This document shows, piece after piece, positions 2,869 through 15,755 of a stretch of 23,787 nucleotides of DNA. Source of the DNA: a virus. The DNA is taken from positions 1 to 23,787 of IMG/VR virus record IMGVR_UViG_3300043413_000057. One strand, written 5' to 3'. Each line of letters opens with the position of its first letter. The first letter of the stretch is position 1. Made by a program: the position numbers and the translations under genes. Below the pieces are notes generated by a model, which saw nothing but the letters and a program-made list of their open reading frames with translations, did not search any database and had not been told where the DNA came from.

Positions 2869-3555
2869 TTAGCGCCCCAAAGATATCCAGTAAAAGCTGC
2901 GAGAGTGGAACACGTAGTTTTCCACAAATGCCTGAGCCGATACGCCGGTTTGTGTCGGGATGCCCACGCTAAAGTTCTGACGACACAAACGGTATTCTGA
3001 GTTGGTATCTAGATTTCCGATGCTAACCCCTGATGTTGTTGCAATACCTAATACGGCATTTGGATAGGCAATGGGGAATGTGATATCGGCTTTTATTCCT
3101 CCTGCCATCCCCGTCGGAACCATCAAAGAGCCCCATTGAAAAATAAACGAACCCAGCCATGTGGGAAATGAAAAATACCCCGTAGACCCTAGCTTCATTG
3201 CAAACCCCAGTCGCAATTTTTTGGGTGTTACTGCAAGCGAATCAGACGTTCCTGCCTCTACATCTTGCTGTGTTGCAATTTTAATCACACCGCGCAATGA
3301 CTCGCTGGCTAACATACCGGCAGATCGAATGATGTTTTTAATTGCCGTTAGCAGTTGATTGTTTTTTGATTTATCGAGAGTAAGTCCACTGTCTTGGTCT
3401 TCAATTACAGCGGCAAGCTCTTCCTGAATTGAATCCAAGAAAGTTGCACTCACCTGTGTTGCCTGAGTACCGGTCTGCGGGTCACCTTGAGTGAAGCCGT
3501 CTTTGCCGGCACCAAATTTGTCTTTCTGGCGGGATGGGGTATCAATACGGTGCAT
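2869..3555 (-). CDS. Tail fibre protein with gp53-like C-terminal domain
   Basis: This is 228 residues from the ATG at 3555 (GGGAG 6 nt upstream). The reading frame extends 11 codons further, but MHRIDTPSRQKDKFGAGKDG is the standard N-terminus of this fibre family. The start is a short attachment segment (GFTQGDPQTGTQAT), then a helix (SIQEELAAVIE) and a shaft-like middle with IRSAGMLASESLRGVIKIATQQDVEAGT. The C-terminal domain, from about 135 to the terminal FYWISLGR, matches the gp53-like receptor-binding tip (TWLGSFIFQWG, ITFPIAYPNAVLGI, NFSVG). The fibre would sit on the baseplate and contact the host surface. The gene looks more AT-rich than the baseplate genes upstream, as is common for exchanged host-range modules. 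Confidence 0.8.
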   Translation of the reverse strand: MHRIDTPSRQKDKFGAGKDGFTQGDPQTGTQATQVSATFLDSIQEELAAVIEDQDSGLTLDKSKNNQLLTAIKNIIRSAGMLASESLRGVIKIATQQDVEAGTSDSLAVTPKKLRLGFAMKLGSTGYFSFPTWLGSFIFQWGSLMVPTGMAGGIKADITFPIAYPNAVLGIATTSGVSIGNLDTNSEYRLCRQNFSVGIPTQTGVSAQAFVENYVFHSRSFYWISLGR

Positions 3556-10525: not shown

Positions 10526-11017
10526 TTAAATCTGTGCCATCAACTCTGCTTTCTTCTCAGCAAACTCTGAGTCAGTGATGACACCTGCTTCTTTCAACGA
10601 AGCCAACTTTTTCAAACGATCAACCACATCATTACCACCGGAAATTGGCTTATCGGTTGGCTTATGCCGACCAACCTCAATCGCGCCAATAACCAGTGTT
10701 TCCCCATCTTTATCGAAGGTCTTGAATTCTAGGGCATCATGGCTTGTGTGCATGCGAATGGTACGGTGACCCATCACAGACTGTCGCTCCACAGAGGTGA
10801 GCTTGTCGAGAGGGATCGTCTCGATGATTTCACCGATAAAACCCTTGCGGTAAAAAGCCACCCGAATGTTGGTGACAATCAGCACACCATGTCGCTGGAC
10901 ATCCTTGCCACTGCCTAACATCTTCCCTGTATAGCCATCCGTCCATGCAACAACCTGTTCGCCTTGGTTGAGATGCCGTTTGGCAAATGCAGCAACGTGT
11001 TTCGATTCTTTGGCCAC
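10526..11017 (-). CDS. PH domain-SHOCT protein inserted in the tail module (moron)
   Basis: This is 163 residues from a GTG at 11017 (AGGAG 5 nt upstream). Residues ~18-115 form a bacterial PH-like domain (GVLIVTNIRVAFYRKG, ETIPLDKLTSVER, HDALEFKTFD). Residues ~133-161 (DRLKKLASLKEAGVITDSEFAEKKAELM) are a clear SHOCT domain, a short helical C-terminal module of unknown role often joined to PH-like domains. There is no membrane segment or signal peptide. It has no known job in tail building. It sits between tape measure and gpN with 94 nt before it and an intrinsic terminator after it. That is the pattern of a lysogenic-conversion or anti-phage cargo gene. A specific role, for example superinfection exclusion, is only inference. 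Confidence 0.8.
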   Translation of the reverse strand: MAKESKHVAAFAKRHLNQGEQVVAWTDGYTGKMLGSGKDVQRHGVLIVTNIRVAFYRKGFIGEIIETIPLDKLTSVERQSVMGHRTIRMHTSHDALEFKTFDKDGETLVIGAIEVGRHKPTDKPISGGNDVVDRLKKLASLKEAGVITDSEFAEKKAELMAQI

Positions 11018-11111: not shown

Positions 11112-13199
11112 CTACTTTTGGGCGTATCTTGAGTAACCCACATCCGGCGACATGGACCAGCCTGGCGAAGTTTTACCCTCGTCAACTCGCAGGTTCTGCG
11201 GAGCATTCTCAAAACGCACCACCATTTCGCCGGAGACCTGTCCAACGCCGGTCGAACTGTTGGCGCCCGCAGCTGGCGAGATAGATGCGAGTGGGGATGA
11301 CGAGCCAAGGCCGCCATTTTCACCGCGCCATATCGCACTGATGGCGTCACCACTGTGCTGCCAGATAGAGCCAACCCCATCCATGACACCACCTACCTTG
11401 TCACCCACCCAGCTGGAGCCATCCATAAGCGGTTGCAGGTAGGGTTGAATGCGCTCCCACATTCCTTTGAACCACGCAACGATAGGTTCCCAGTTCTGAA
11501 TAATGAGCCCCAGCGGGGTAAAGTCGAGGAACCCTTGCTTCAAGAAAGCCCACGCTAACGAGAATCCAGTTTTCACCGAGCCCCACAACTCGCCAAACCA
11601 GCTGCTGATAGGTTCCCAGTTCTGAATAATGAGCCCCAGCGGGGTAAAGTCGAGGAACCCTTGCTTCAAGAAAGCCCACGCTAACGAGAATCCAGTTTTC
11701 ACTGAGCCCCACAACTCGCCAAACCAGCTGCTGATAGGTTCCCAGTTCTGAATAATGAGCCCCAGCGGGTGAAAGTTGAAAAACATCAGCTTCAGCGATT
11801 CCCATGCCGCACTGGCGAGAATGGTAATGGACTGCCATACCTTGGCAAACCAGGGGCCGATAGTGCCCCAGTTGGCAATGATCAGGCCAGCCGCCATAGC
11901 CACCCCGCGCAGGATCAGGCCAATCGGCGTCGCTGTCATGGCATTGCCAAAGAAGGTCATGGCTACGCCGCCAGCATAGAGTGCCAGCTTTAGGGCAGCA
12001 AACCCTGCGGCAACGCCTACCACGCCGCGAATCACTTCTGGGTTGGCAGCTGCGAATTCACTGAACTTGGCGGCCATATTACCCAACCAAGTGACGGTTT
12101 CCTTCGCCTCCCCTTGAAAAGCGCCGCCTATCGCAGCAAGACCGTTCACCGCAGTGCCAGTCATGGCATCCCATAGGTTGCCCAGAGTGCCTAGCTGAGC
12201 GCCAACCCGTTGTTGCAGACTCGCCTGCTTGGCCATTCTCTGCTGGATCTCGTCGTATCCAGATTTCCCTTTATCAATAATCGTTTTGAGGGCTTGCTGG
12301 GTTTCAGAATCCGTACCGAAGATTTGCCCTAATACGGTGAGCTTATCGCCTTCGTTGAGAGCTTTTAACTTGTCGAGTTGGGCAAACATATTATCAAGCC
12401 CACCGAATTCTCCTTTACCATCGGTGAAATCGAGCTTGATCCCCTTGCGGCTCATCAGTCGATTAGCTTCTTTTACCTTTTTCCTGTCAAATCCTGCAGT
12501 CATGATCTTTCGCATGGCGTTACCTGCAGATTCACCAGCCATTGAAGCTTGATCCAGCATAACTGCAATAGGAGCCATCGCTTGCGCTGCTTTCAACCCA
12601 TCCTTGCTAACCAGCTTCATGGCTGATGAGGCTTTGCCAAAAAACTGAAGCATGTTGTTGTCATCGACCCCCATATAGAAGGCCTTCTGGATGGTATCGA
12701 ACAGACTCATCATGTCTTTGGAGGTTGTACCGGTCGCGTCCTGCATCTTGGCAGCGAACTCTGCCGCAGCGGCCGGTGCCTTACCCAACTGCACCGCCAG
12801 ATAGGCGGTCGCCTCACCAACCCCACCTAGCACCGTTTCGGCACTGAGGCCTTGACGCTGCAGCATGGTCATCATGTCCTGAAAGTCGGCGGTGGTACCT
12901 GGCAACTTGTTGCCAAGCCCTATCGCCATGTCGTTCATTTTCTTGAACTCGGGGCCTACAGCACCGCTGGCATCCATCATCGCAACTTTGAGGCCTGTAG
13001 CTGCATTTTCTGACTGGGCAAATGCGGCAAGACTGCCACCTACCGCGGCCGCTAACCCAATACCCAATGCAGGAGCCCCCTCCCCTGCGCTTTTGAGGTC
13101 ACGCTCCCATCCCTTGATGTTCTTGCGGATCCCCTTGAGTGCAGGCGAGAGTTTATCTACGCCGGTGATCAGGGCTTTTAGCTGAAATTCATTGGCCAT
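11112..13199 (-). CDS. Tail tape measure protein
   Basis: This is a 695-residue protein starting MANEFQLKALITGVDKLSPALKGI. The N-terminal half is helical with Gly-Ala-rich and phage TMP-type stretches (GLGNKLPGTTADFQDMM, PAAAAEFAAKMQDATG). Long hydrophobic segments lie at ~387-442 (VIRGVVGVAAGFAALKLALYAGGV, TPIGLILRGVAMAAGLI). After these come repeated P-x-G-L-I...NW-x-x-I-x-x-WF units (~425, 478, 520, 562). Two of them, 482-523 and 524-565, are the products of a nearly perfect 126-bp DNA duplication. The tape measure sets tail length and leaves the tail during DNA entry. The ATG lies just after the stop of the frameshifted chaperone extension. Its ribosome site is weak, so coupling to the chaperone is likely. 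Confidence 0.93.
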   Translation of the reverse strand: MANEFQLKALITGVDKLSPALKGIRKNIKGWERDLKSAGEGAPALGIGLAAAVGGSLAAFAQSENAATGLKVAMMDASGAVGPEFKKMNDMAIGLGNKLPGTTADFQDMMTMLQRQGLSAETVLGGVGEATAYLAVQLGKAPAAAAEFAAKMQDATGTTSKDMMSLFDTIQKAFYMGVDDNNMLQFFGKASSAMKLVSKDGLKAAQAMAPIAVMLDQASMAGESAGNAMRKIMTAGFDRKKVKEANRLMSRKGIKLDFTDGKGEFGGLDNMFAQLDKLKALNEGDKLTVLGQIFGTDSETQQALKTIIDKGKSGYDEIQQRMAKQASLQQRVGAQLGTLGNLWDAMTGTAVNGLAAIGGAFQGEAKETVTWLGNMAAKFSEFAAANPEVIRGVVGVAAGFAALKLALYAGGVAMTFFGNAMTATPIGLILRGVAMAAGLIIANWGTIGPWFAKVWQSITILASAAWESLKLMFFNFHPLGLIIQNWEPISSWFGELWGSVKTGFSLAWAFLKQGFLDFTPLGLIIQNWEPISSWFGELWGSVKTGFSLAWAFLKQGFLDFTPLGLIIQNWEPIVAWFKGMWERIQPYLQPLMDGSSWVGDKVGGVMDGVGSIWQHSGDAISAIWRGENGGLGSSSPLASISPAAGANSSTGVGQVSGEMVVRFENAPQNLRVDEGKTSPGWSMSPDVGYSRYAQK
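11485..11769. repeat. 126-bp tandem repeat in the tape measure gene (two full copies, part of a third)
   Basis: Copies begin at 11485 and 11611, with a partial one from 11737 to about 11769. The two full copies differ by one noticed synonymous base (CACCGAG / CACTGAG). The unit encodes 42 residues from IIQNWEPISSWF to LDFTPLGL, so the frame is kept. The near-identity indicates a recent duplication. Confidence 0.95.
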
Positions 13200-13202
13200 G
13201 AC

Positions 13203-13624
13203 TTATACGTCGCTCTGGTGTGTTTTGATTCTGCTGCACTGTTGCTCTAGCAAGCCAAGAAAATCGAGGTCACGGGAGAGCAACACCATGGGGTCACTCC
13301 CCCACCACTTAGCCATATCAAAGTAGCGATTAAGGATGTCTTGCTCGGTCACCCCTTGAGGAAAAAACCGGCAATCATCCAACCGGCATTATTCAGATCC
13401 GACGGAGTCATTTGCTCTACTGAACTTACGGGGATACCAGCCAGCTCCACCAGATAGAACTTCACCTTTTTCATGCTGATGTTGGCTTCCCCTTCCGGAG
13501 TCATTGTGTATGGCAGGCCAATCTTGCACACCTGCTCACCGGTTGGGGTCGGAATCGTGAGCTCGGTAACTGACTCACCGTGTGCTTGGATAGGAGCACT
13601 CAGCTTAATTACTTGCTTGGTCAT
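13203..13624 (-). CDS. Tail assembly chaperone, long form made by -1 frameshift (gp41-gp42 type)
   Basis: Ribosomes that slip back one base at TTTTTTC (13367 down to 13361) would join the first 88 residues of the short form to a 52-residue extension. The extension starts PQGVTEQDILNRYFDMAKWW and ends at TAA 13205-13203. The extension has no start codon of its own, is protein-like and ends 3 nt before the tape measure ATG. Lambda G/GT and many myophages use the same layout. The long form binds the tape measure and the short form coats it during tail assembly; neither is in the virion. The 140-residue length is typical. The frameshift was inferred from reading frames only. Confidence 0.8.
13349..13624 (-). 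CDS. Tail assembly chaperone, short form (Mu gp41-like)
   Basis: This is a 91-residue protein (MTKQVIKLSAPIQAHGESVTELTIPTPTGE) with AAGGA about 10 nt before the ATG. The N-terminal strands followed by IGLPYTMTPEGEANISMKKVKFYLVELAGIP and SVEQMTPSDLNNAGWMIAGFF match the Mu gp41 / tail assembly chaperone family. The terminal GFF codons lie in the slippery run. The normal stop is TGA 13351-13349. It would pack along the tape measure before the tube polymerises. Confidence 0.88.
   Translation of the reverse strand: MTKQVIKLSAPIQAHGESVTELTIPTPTGEQVCKIGLPYTMTPEGEANISMKKVKFYLVELAGIPVSSVEQMTPSDLNNAGWMIAGFFLKG
13361..13367 (-). other. Canonical -1 slippery heptamer T TTT TTC
   Basis: In the frame of the short chaperone the codons are GGT TTT TTC, so the heptamer is in the X XXY YYZ register. 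The zero-frame stop is 10 nt further on. The minus-1 frame is open for 52 codons beyond. Confidence 0.85.
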
Positions 13625-13701: not shown

Positions 13702-14058
13702 TCATTGATAGAAGCCCTCCTGACCATTGAATTGCAATTCGACGGTGCCTTCCTCGGCGTTATGGTTGGCTTCCCCTTCCAACCAGGCGTTTTTCAACAC
13801 ATAAACCAGACCATTCGCCAGCTCGGCGGTGATGGTCATGTCGGTCCCCTCTTCCAGCTTTTTGAGCGGGAAGTCTTTGGGCACCTTGTAGGTGCCTTTC
13901 ACAAAGGGAGCGCGGTGAGTTTCCTTGAAGTCGACCCCGCCACCGAGGTCAACAATGGACTCCTTGACACGGAGGTTCATCGGAACCTCAATGCCACCAG
14001 TCAGCGACAACTGACCGCCATCGACTTTCACGAAGCAGGTACCCGCGATGCGTGACAT
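13702..14058 (-). CDS. Tail tube protein (Mu gpM / gp40-like)
   Basis: This is a 118-residue protein starting MSRIAGTCFVKVDGGQLSLTGGIEVPMN, then KESIVDLGGGVDFKETHRAPFVKGTYKVP. The C-terminal strands end in GTVELQFNGQEGFYQ. This is the Mu-type tail tube family, with length close to the usual ~118. It forms the hexameric rings of the inner tube. GGAGG lies 5 nt before the ATG, which follows the sheath stop directly. Confidence 0.93.
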   Translation of the reverse strand: MSRIAGTCFVKVDGGQLSLTGGIEVPMNLRVKESIVDLGGGVDFKETHRAPFVKGTYKVPKDFPLKKLEEGTDMTITAELANGLVYVLKNAWLEGEANHNAEEGTVELQFNGQEGFYQ

Positions 14059-15552
14059 TTATGCCTCCTGGTGTTGCAGACGAAATTGGTTGAGCATCGC
14101 AAAGATGCGCAGTTGGTTGACGTAATCGGGAGGGAACAGCATGTTCATGCGGTTCGAGTCCTTATCACGCTCCACGATCAGGTATTTGGCGAAGACCTCG
14201 AAGTTCTCGACGATGCCTTCGCGCTCCATCAGCTTGTATTCCCCCATCACCTCCCCTTTAACGACGGAGGGGGTGACAATCGCTTGGCCAGGGCCAAAGC
14301 GAGTGCCATCGTTCGCCAGCTTATGGCGACCATACTTGCTGGTGACGATGCTGCGCAGCCGGCGGATCACGTAAGCCGAGGTGTGCAGGGTCTCGCTGTC
14401 GAGATAGCTGTTGTCGGCCGCACCATATTTGTTGCGCTGGTAGTTGGTGATGGCCCGCTCTACCTGCATCACACCGGACTGGACGGTTTGAGTTGCCATG
14501 CCAGAACTCAGCAGGGTCTGGCGCTCACTGGCGATGAAGCGCTTGCCCATCGGCGCCGGCAGTTGACCATCCAGGTCGCCAGTTTGAGTTGGGCGGGCCG
14601 GGTCAATCCGGATGAAGATGGCATTGCGTGCCGTGAATGCGGCGGCTGCACAGTAGGGGACGGCCGGCGCCAGCAGCTCCAGGCTCAGATAGCTGATGTG
14701 CTGGCCGTTGCGCGCCTTGCCAAAGGTGACCAGGTCACTGACCGTCCCCTTCTTGGCGGTGTAGATGTGGCCGTAAATCTGCCGTGACCAGGACCAGCGC
14801 CCCGTGCTGTCATTCATCTCGCGTTCGAGCGCATCAACGCTGGCGCTATCTGTCCAGGGCATGCCGATATAGTCGAACAGCTCATCGCCCATTGCGGCGA
14901 TGGCCGCAGTCAAATCTGGCGAACCGGCCCCACCACTCATCGCAGCAATAGTCAGAGTGAGCCCTTTCGGCACGTCTTCACCACCAGCCACACCACGGTA
15001 GGAGTGAAGCAGGCTGATGTCGTTGCCAGTGAGACCCTTCCATCTGGCGGTGAGCGTGGTTACGCCAGCCGCTCCGGCGGTTGCTATGACCGGCAGATCT
15101 GCAGCAGCATTGACCGCCGCCAAGACGGACGCCGCGACTACAGCAGCCGTGTCGTTCGCTGCTACGGCTACCTGCACCCGTTGAGTCGCGATGTAGAGAG
15201 AGAGCACGCCGGCAGCTTGCGCAGTACCGGTCACGGTGATTGTGCCGGTTGCAACAGCCCCGGCTGTCGGTTCTGGCACGTTGATCATCCACAGCTCACC
15301 GAAGCTATCGACGTTGCGGTATGCCTCAACCATGGCGGCCAGCTGACTACCTTGCCCCACCAGCCCTTTTGCAGCGGCGGCAGTGGTTGCCAGCTGCAGC
15401 TCATTTTTCCCAGAGGTTACCGACGCCAGCCCATGACCGATGATCAGAGAGCGCAAGACCTCGCTCGCGGTATTCGCCGCGCTGTTGTCCATCTCCGCAT
15501 AGAACAGCGGAACCCGCAGGTCAGCGGGGATATTGTTGAAGCTGACAGCCAT
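14059..15552 (-). CDS. Tail sheath protein (Mu gpL-like)
   Basis: This is 497 residues from ATG 15552, which overlaps the upstream stop by 1 nt. A GTG one codon earlier is less likely because GGGAG is 7 nt before the ATG. It starts MAVSFNNIPADLRVPLFYAEMDNSAAN, with QQ-like inserts (~100-200 beta domain TGTITVTGTAQAAGVLSLYI). The core then has YIGMPWTDSASVDALEREMND and RWSWSRQIYGHIYTAKKGTVSDLVTFG. The C-terminal domain (YVIRRLRSIVTSKYGRHKLA, YLIVERDKDSNRMNMLFPPDYVNQLRIF) holds the mesh arm. It shows that the tail is contractile. Confidence 0.95.
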   Translation of the reverse strand: MAVSFNNIPADLRVPLFYAEMDNSAANTASEVLRSLIIGHGLASVTSGKNELQLATTAAAAKGLVGQGSQLAAMVEAYRNVDSFGELWMINVPEPTAGAVATGTITVTGTAQAAGVLSLYIATQRVQVAVAANDTAAVVAASVLAAVNAAADLPVIATAGAAGVTTLTARWKGLTGNDISLLHSYRGVAGGEDVPKGLTLTIAAMSGGAGSPDLTAAIAAMGDELFDYIGMPWTDSASVDALEREMNDSTGRWSWSRQIYGHIYTAKKGTVSDLVTFGKARNGQHISYLSLELLAPAVPYCAAAAFTARNAIFIRIDPARPTQTGDLDGQLPAPMGKRFIASERQTLLSSGMATQTVQSGVMQVERAITNYQRNKYGAADNSYLDSETLHTSAYVIRRLRSIVTSKYGRHKLANDGTRFGPGQAIVTPSVVKGEVMGEYKLMEREGIVENFEVFAKYLIVERDKDSNRMNMLFPPDYVNQLRIFAMLNQFRLQHQEA

Positions 15553-15755
15553 CACTTGGCTCCCTTGATTTTGGTTGGGTTCTGCTCCGCAGCATCAGGG
15601 TTGTCCTGAGTTACTGCCTCGGTGAGGGTGATATCGCCATCAAGCTGACGGCGGTACCAATACTGGTTTGGCTCGACGTTGCGGCCATCTGGCGGCAAAA
15701 AGTCGCCCCTGACCGGATCTGGTACAGATCGGCCACCATTGGGTTTGGCGAACAT
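15552..15755 (-). CDS. DUF2635 protein (Mu gp38-like)
   Basis: This is a 67-residue protein. GRSVPDPVRGDFLPPDGRNVEPNQYWYRRQLDGD is the diagnostic DUF2635 sequence, found just before the sheath gene in Mu-like tails. AGGAG lies 6 nt before the ATG. The exact role is not established. It ends in a 20-residue Asn/Gln/Lys-rich tail and its stop overlaps the sheath start. Confidence 0.88.
   Translation of the reverse strand: MFAKPNGGRSVPDPVRGDFLPPDGRNVEPNQYWYRRQLDGDITLTEAVTQDNPDAAEQNPTKIKGAK

Follow-up and report, generated by a model that had tools for sequence, protein, structure and literature searches.

The window, by which we mean the whole 23,787-nt stretch of DNA analysed here, carries a set of tail genes on its minus strand. 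The gene for the contractile tail sheath protein (498 aa, 14059-15555; PF04984, 1e-24, and PF17482) is followed by that for the tail tube protein (118 aa, 13702-14058; PF10618, 1e-30), a short gene for a protein of 91 aa (13349-13624) and the gene for the tape measure protein (695 aa, 11112-13199; PF10145 PhageMin_Tail, 1e-21; phrog_28 tape measure, 3e-93). The 91-aa protein matches the Pfam family Phage_TAC_7 (PF10109, E 1e-10; 42 bits with a cut-off of 25), which holds the tail assembly chaperones E, 41 or 14, and in PHROGs it matches the tail protein family phrog_166 (2e-12). We assign it as the G/E-like short form of the tail assembly chaperone. The order tube, chaperone, tape measure is the placement of the G/GT class.

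The tape-measure gene contains a tandem repeat at 11481-11776 (126-bp unit, 2.3 copies, 98% matches) that codes for the 42-residue unit LGLIIQNWEPISSWFGELWGSVKTGFSLAWAFLKQGFLDFTP. The repeat is a recent internal duplication and may change the length of the tail. Between the tape-measure and DNA-circularisation genes lies a gene (10526-11017) with bacterial PH-like (bPH_3) and SHOCT domains. Its position looks like a cargo site, since AH07 and SKA5 likewise have an extra gene at the equivalent spot.

The 3' end of the chaperone gene reads ATT GCC GGT TTT TTC CTC AAG GGG TGA, with the stop codon TGA at 13351-13349. The slippery heptamer T_TTT_TTC (13367-13361, minus strand) is in register with the chaperone frame, and the stop lies 16 nt downstream of it. 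Upon a -1 slip the C would be re-read and translation would continue through CCT CAA GGG GTG ACC for 52 codons (PQGVTEQDILNRYFDMAKWWGSDPMVLLSRDLDFLGLLEQQCSRIKTHQSDV) to the TAA at 13205-13203; the tape-measure ATG at 13199 is 3 nt further. The predicted fusion has 88 + 52 = 140 residues and the junction peptide ...IAGFFPQGVTEQD..., and its extension (13203-13361, minus strand, including the TAA) appears as a T/E'-like domain on the grounds of conservation, frame-specific purifying selection and predicted fold. The in-register heptamer, the open 52-codon frame, its end and the 3 nt to the tape-measure ATG had all been given in the original prediction, and every one of these coordinates was reproduced. 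The same prediction denied the extension any start codon. This is incorrect: in the -1 frame a GTG (13352-13350) runs into the stop codon of the chaperone, in the sequence GTGA, and there are ATGs within the extension. The -2/+1 frame of the window is shut 6 codons beyond the chaperone stop, and in the closest kin it is also soon closed.

A -1 frame that stays open for 50 codons occurs in 7.5% of dinucleotide shuffles and is alone not rare. Among the 6,949 codons of the 26 listed minus-strand genes, the heptamer is the sole in-register T6 and one of two runs of T6 or A6. It is placed this close to the stop in exactly the gene type known for such sites.

Searched at the nucleotide level, the phage collection gave no match to the window; a protein search did find matches. 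The mixed alignment contained sequences too divergent for a search by pattern, and single proteins from three clades were used instead. The conservation census covers the window and 236 loci, some of which are one contig fetched twice, and amounts to 161 distinct DNA sequences. All loci were retrieved by chaperone peptides, with no use of the heptamer or the extension, so the way in which the loci were chosen did not favour either feature. Aeromonas and IMG/VR prophages come closest (65-71% identity), followed by Edwardsiella phage EPP-1, Pantoea phage AH07 and the SfV/SfI/SfII group. In a tblastn search with the fusion, EPP-1, AH07, SfV, SfI and SfII each gave a two-piece match, one piece to the chaperone and the other to the extension.

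An in-register T6 heptamer stands at the equivalent place in 233 of the 237 loci. Counted by distinct sequence (n = 161), the heptamer is TTTTTTC in 157, TTTTTTT in 3 (SfIV, ST64B and YeP1) and TTTTTTG in 1 (PG1); 158 of the sequences have a run of 6 T, the other 3 a run of 7 T, and none is longer. The conservation among SfV-like phages that had been proposed as a check was thus found, with the identical heptamer and the extension in SfV, SfI and SfII. Across the relatives the chaperone stop lies 16, 31, 37, 55 or 70 nt downstream of the slip site, and the -1 frame nearly always ends near, or just within, the tape-measure start, which it reaches in every intact locus. In SfIV and ST64B, the chaperone frame extends 70 nt past the slip site, so that both frames are read over a long stretch.

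The departures from the -1 frame pattern are L034 (an insertion), L165 (a contig end) and Paraburkholderia phage IPK (no T6). In L034 the match to SfI ends inside the frameshift extension, from position 2863, and beyond it runs a long open frame that by eye is like a phage or satellite helicase-primase; this is an insertion or a misassembly. Phage IPK has at 2998-3509 a related chaperone and an extension-like sequence in the -1 frame, without a T6 run. This extension may be a separate gene, because a GTG is found near its start. In three SfV-type prophages of E. coli (L036, L059 and L229), GGG replaces GGT before the Phe codons and the extension is otherwise intact. Their sites are G_TTT_TTT or G_TTT_TTC, not T_TTT_TTC, and should slip less.

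Beyond the chaperone stop, the -1 frame has a pN/pS of 0.08 among 81 enterobacterial sequences and 0.09 among 69 Pseudomonas-type sequences, whereas the other two frames of these clades have values of 1.9-2.3. For the Aeromonas clade, which comprises four sequences including the window and whose silent sites are near saturation, the value of the -1 frame is 0.44 versus 1.0 and 1.1. Low values in the -1 frame only argue that this frame is translated into a protein that matters. As the arrangement is conserved in 161 distinct relatives and purifying selection acts in the -1 frame only, it is beyond doubt that the two reading frames joined at a slippery run are real and lie far beyond chance.

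The extension has the core pattern FF...(F/Y)(D/N/E)xxAxxWxxx(D/N)P...QAxRI, and its predicted structure is a three-helix domain (pLDDT 87). Fold searches of this model against PDB and BFVD gave no significant match, nor did a PDB sequence search, NCBIfam and Pfam with the extension. The AlphaFold model of the chaperone only (pLDDT 51) was too poor to use.

All the above indicate that the chaperone gene of this Aeromonas-type SfV-like myovirus prophage very probably uses programmed -1 ribosomal frameshifting to produce a G/GT-type pair. The original prediction of a programmed -1 shift giving a GT-like protein of 140 residues has thereby gained comparative support from conservation, selection and the P2 alignment described below. 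As in the G/GT class, the -1 frame is open to just before the tape-measure gene and is under selection at the protein level. Most ribosomes would end at the TGA and release the 91-residue chaperone. In a minority, the Phe-tRNAs on TTT and TTC would slip by -1 on T_TTT_TTC, and the ribosome would add the 52 further codons of the fusion. Judging from lambda G/GT and P2 E/E+E', the short chaperone might coat the tape measure protein, the extra domain of the rare fusion might recruit the tail tube subunits, and both forms would be absent from the finished virion. We infer from sequence that slipping occurs, how efficient it is, that it is translational rather than transcriptional, and what the two products do.

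The fusion could also arise by transcriptional slippage, in which RNA polymerase inserts or skips a base within the T-run and a share of the mRNAs encodes it. The slip site is indeed a homopolymer run. Published slippage on T-runs is linked to more than 8 T (PMC3711429), and since the runs in the census have at most 7 T, we regard this route as very unlikely. The codon phase of the run and the C, G or T after it fit X_XXY_YYZ, which slippage does not need.

Re-initiation offers a different origin for the extension, which would then be a separate small protein made from the GTG at 13352-13350 by translational coupling through the GTGA overlap. The GTG is present in the window, PHROGs has stand-alone families that resemble the extension in sequence (phrog_32181 and phrog_11318), and a stand-alone ORF is annotated in one record. 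However, the window is the only one of 159 distinct sequences with GTG at this place; the others have GTA, CTG, CTA, TTA and, in one case, TTG. The Pseudomonas group has no usual start near the chaperone stop, and what is kept among the relatives is the slippery run, not a start. Because the GTG is private to one sequence, re-initiation is judged very unlikely, at a slightly lower probability than transcriptional slippage. Although a T-run is an error-prone place, the idea that chaperone and extension are one ORF broken by a sequencing or assembly error or by decay is refuted by the census and has practically no chance of being right, as the two-frame layout is found again in SfV, SfI, SfII and many other independent genomes (161 distinct sequences), with purifying selection on chaperone and extension alike.

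We looked for a stimulatory RNA structure. Folds predicted downstream of the site are no more stable than those of shuffles (z -1.1 and 0.1). In the window alone, the sequence across the site folds with unusual stability (z -3.2). We considered this fold as a conserved element and rejected it: the alignment consensus is only -0.84 kcal/mol with no compensatory change, and no conserved stimulatory structure was found in the alignment. This would speak against programmed frameshifting, but P2-like slip sites are likewise without a stimulatory structure (PMC3091744).

Two RefSeq E. coli genomes lack an annotation of the extension, as do SfV, SfI, EPP-1 and AH07. In the inspected E. coli records, the 141-bp stretch that holds it has no annotation, with the chaperone gene on one side and the tape-measure gene on the other. 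One record, of an E. coli phage, does list the extension as a separate 'hypothetical protein'. The expectation that gene callers would miss the extension is thus borne out by most of the relatives' records inspected and fails for this one. Close relatives are found in 908 of 5,426 complete E. coli genomes. The practical value of the present analysis is the annotation of an extension that is missing from most of the inspected records. The mechanism is not new, as the trick is known from many tailed phages and from P2 above all; a clear case with strong comparative support is added to a known mechanism that sets the ratio of the tail chaperones.

The closest known system is the E/E+E' pair of P2 (Peduoviridae). 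Both chaperones belong to Phage_TAC_7 and have the same place in the tail operon. P2 E has 91 aa, as does the short form of the window, and E+E' has 142 aa compared with the predicted 140 aa; in P2 the -1 shift is annotated at TTTTTTG (PMC3091744). The two systems share a T_TTT_TTN slip site at the homologous position, the -1 direction and the absence of a downstream hairpin. They differ in that the heptamer ends in G in P2 and in C in the window, that the distance from the heptamer start to the stop is 25 nt in P2 and 16 nt in the window, and that the P2 extension overlaps the tape-measure start while that of the window ends before it. In hhalign, the profiles of SfV-type and P2-type fusions align with 97% probability (E 1.1e-10) over 121 columns and through the slip site; the extension alone has no significant similarity to P2 E' (6%, E 0.006, 32 columns). 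The end-to-end alignment with P2-type fusions indicates that the predicted fusion is a P2-type chaperone pair.

SfV, SfI and SfII, in which the chaperone is encoded by the gp13-like tail protein gene, share with the window not only the heptamer but also the 16 nt to the stop and a colinear -1 extension. They are about 43% identical, and the extension is unannotated in these records. In the literature searched, no description of the SfV slip site was found; it is possibly among the 28 phages of Xu 2004. It is an even chance that the SfV-type tails form one large and practically unannotated P2-type -1 branch, in which T_TTT_TTC persists across Aeromonas, Pseudomonas, Burkholderia and E. coli, with the rare G_TTT_TTN variants (L036, L059 and L229) as natural tests of the amount of frameshifting that a tail needs.

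The slip site of lambda G/GT is GGGAAAG, unlike that of the window. A site of this lambda-known type stands in register in Mannheimia phage PHL101, which has a P2-type chaperone and lacks the T6 heptamer. The lambda pair, likened here by description, resembles that of the window in its -1 shift, which lies near the end of the chaperone gene and directly ahead of the tape measure (PMC5009743). A -1 frameshift before the tape measure, or a -2 frameshift in Mu, is conserved in tailed phages (PMC2628397, PMC5009743).

Mu gp41 is similar in its gene position and tail architecture, and its extension in another frame likewise reaches the tape-measure gene. However, Mu requires a -2 shift; its -1 frame closes early and an in-register T6 is absent. 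When Mu was run through the script used on the window, the -2 frame alone ran on, to 15 nt before the tape measure. The -2/+1 frame is therefore open to the tape measure in Mu, whereas in the window it is not. The Mu-like Pseudomonas phage PaMx73 has, by its published description, a -1 shift at T TTT TTC in the tail assembly genes ORFs 35/36, in a siphovirus-type tail that differs from that of the window (PMC4378225). This site was published in 2014, and the -2 shift of Mu was there called exceptional (PMC4378225). A plain -1 shift in a Mu-type tail had been put forward as being of special interest. Given the kinship with P2 E, the published T TTT TTC of a Mu-like phage and the exceptional status of the Mu shift, it is instead what would be expected, and the comparison suggests that it is the -2 shift of Mu that stands apart within this type of contractile tail.
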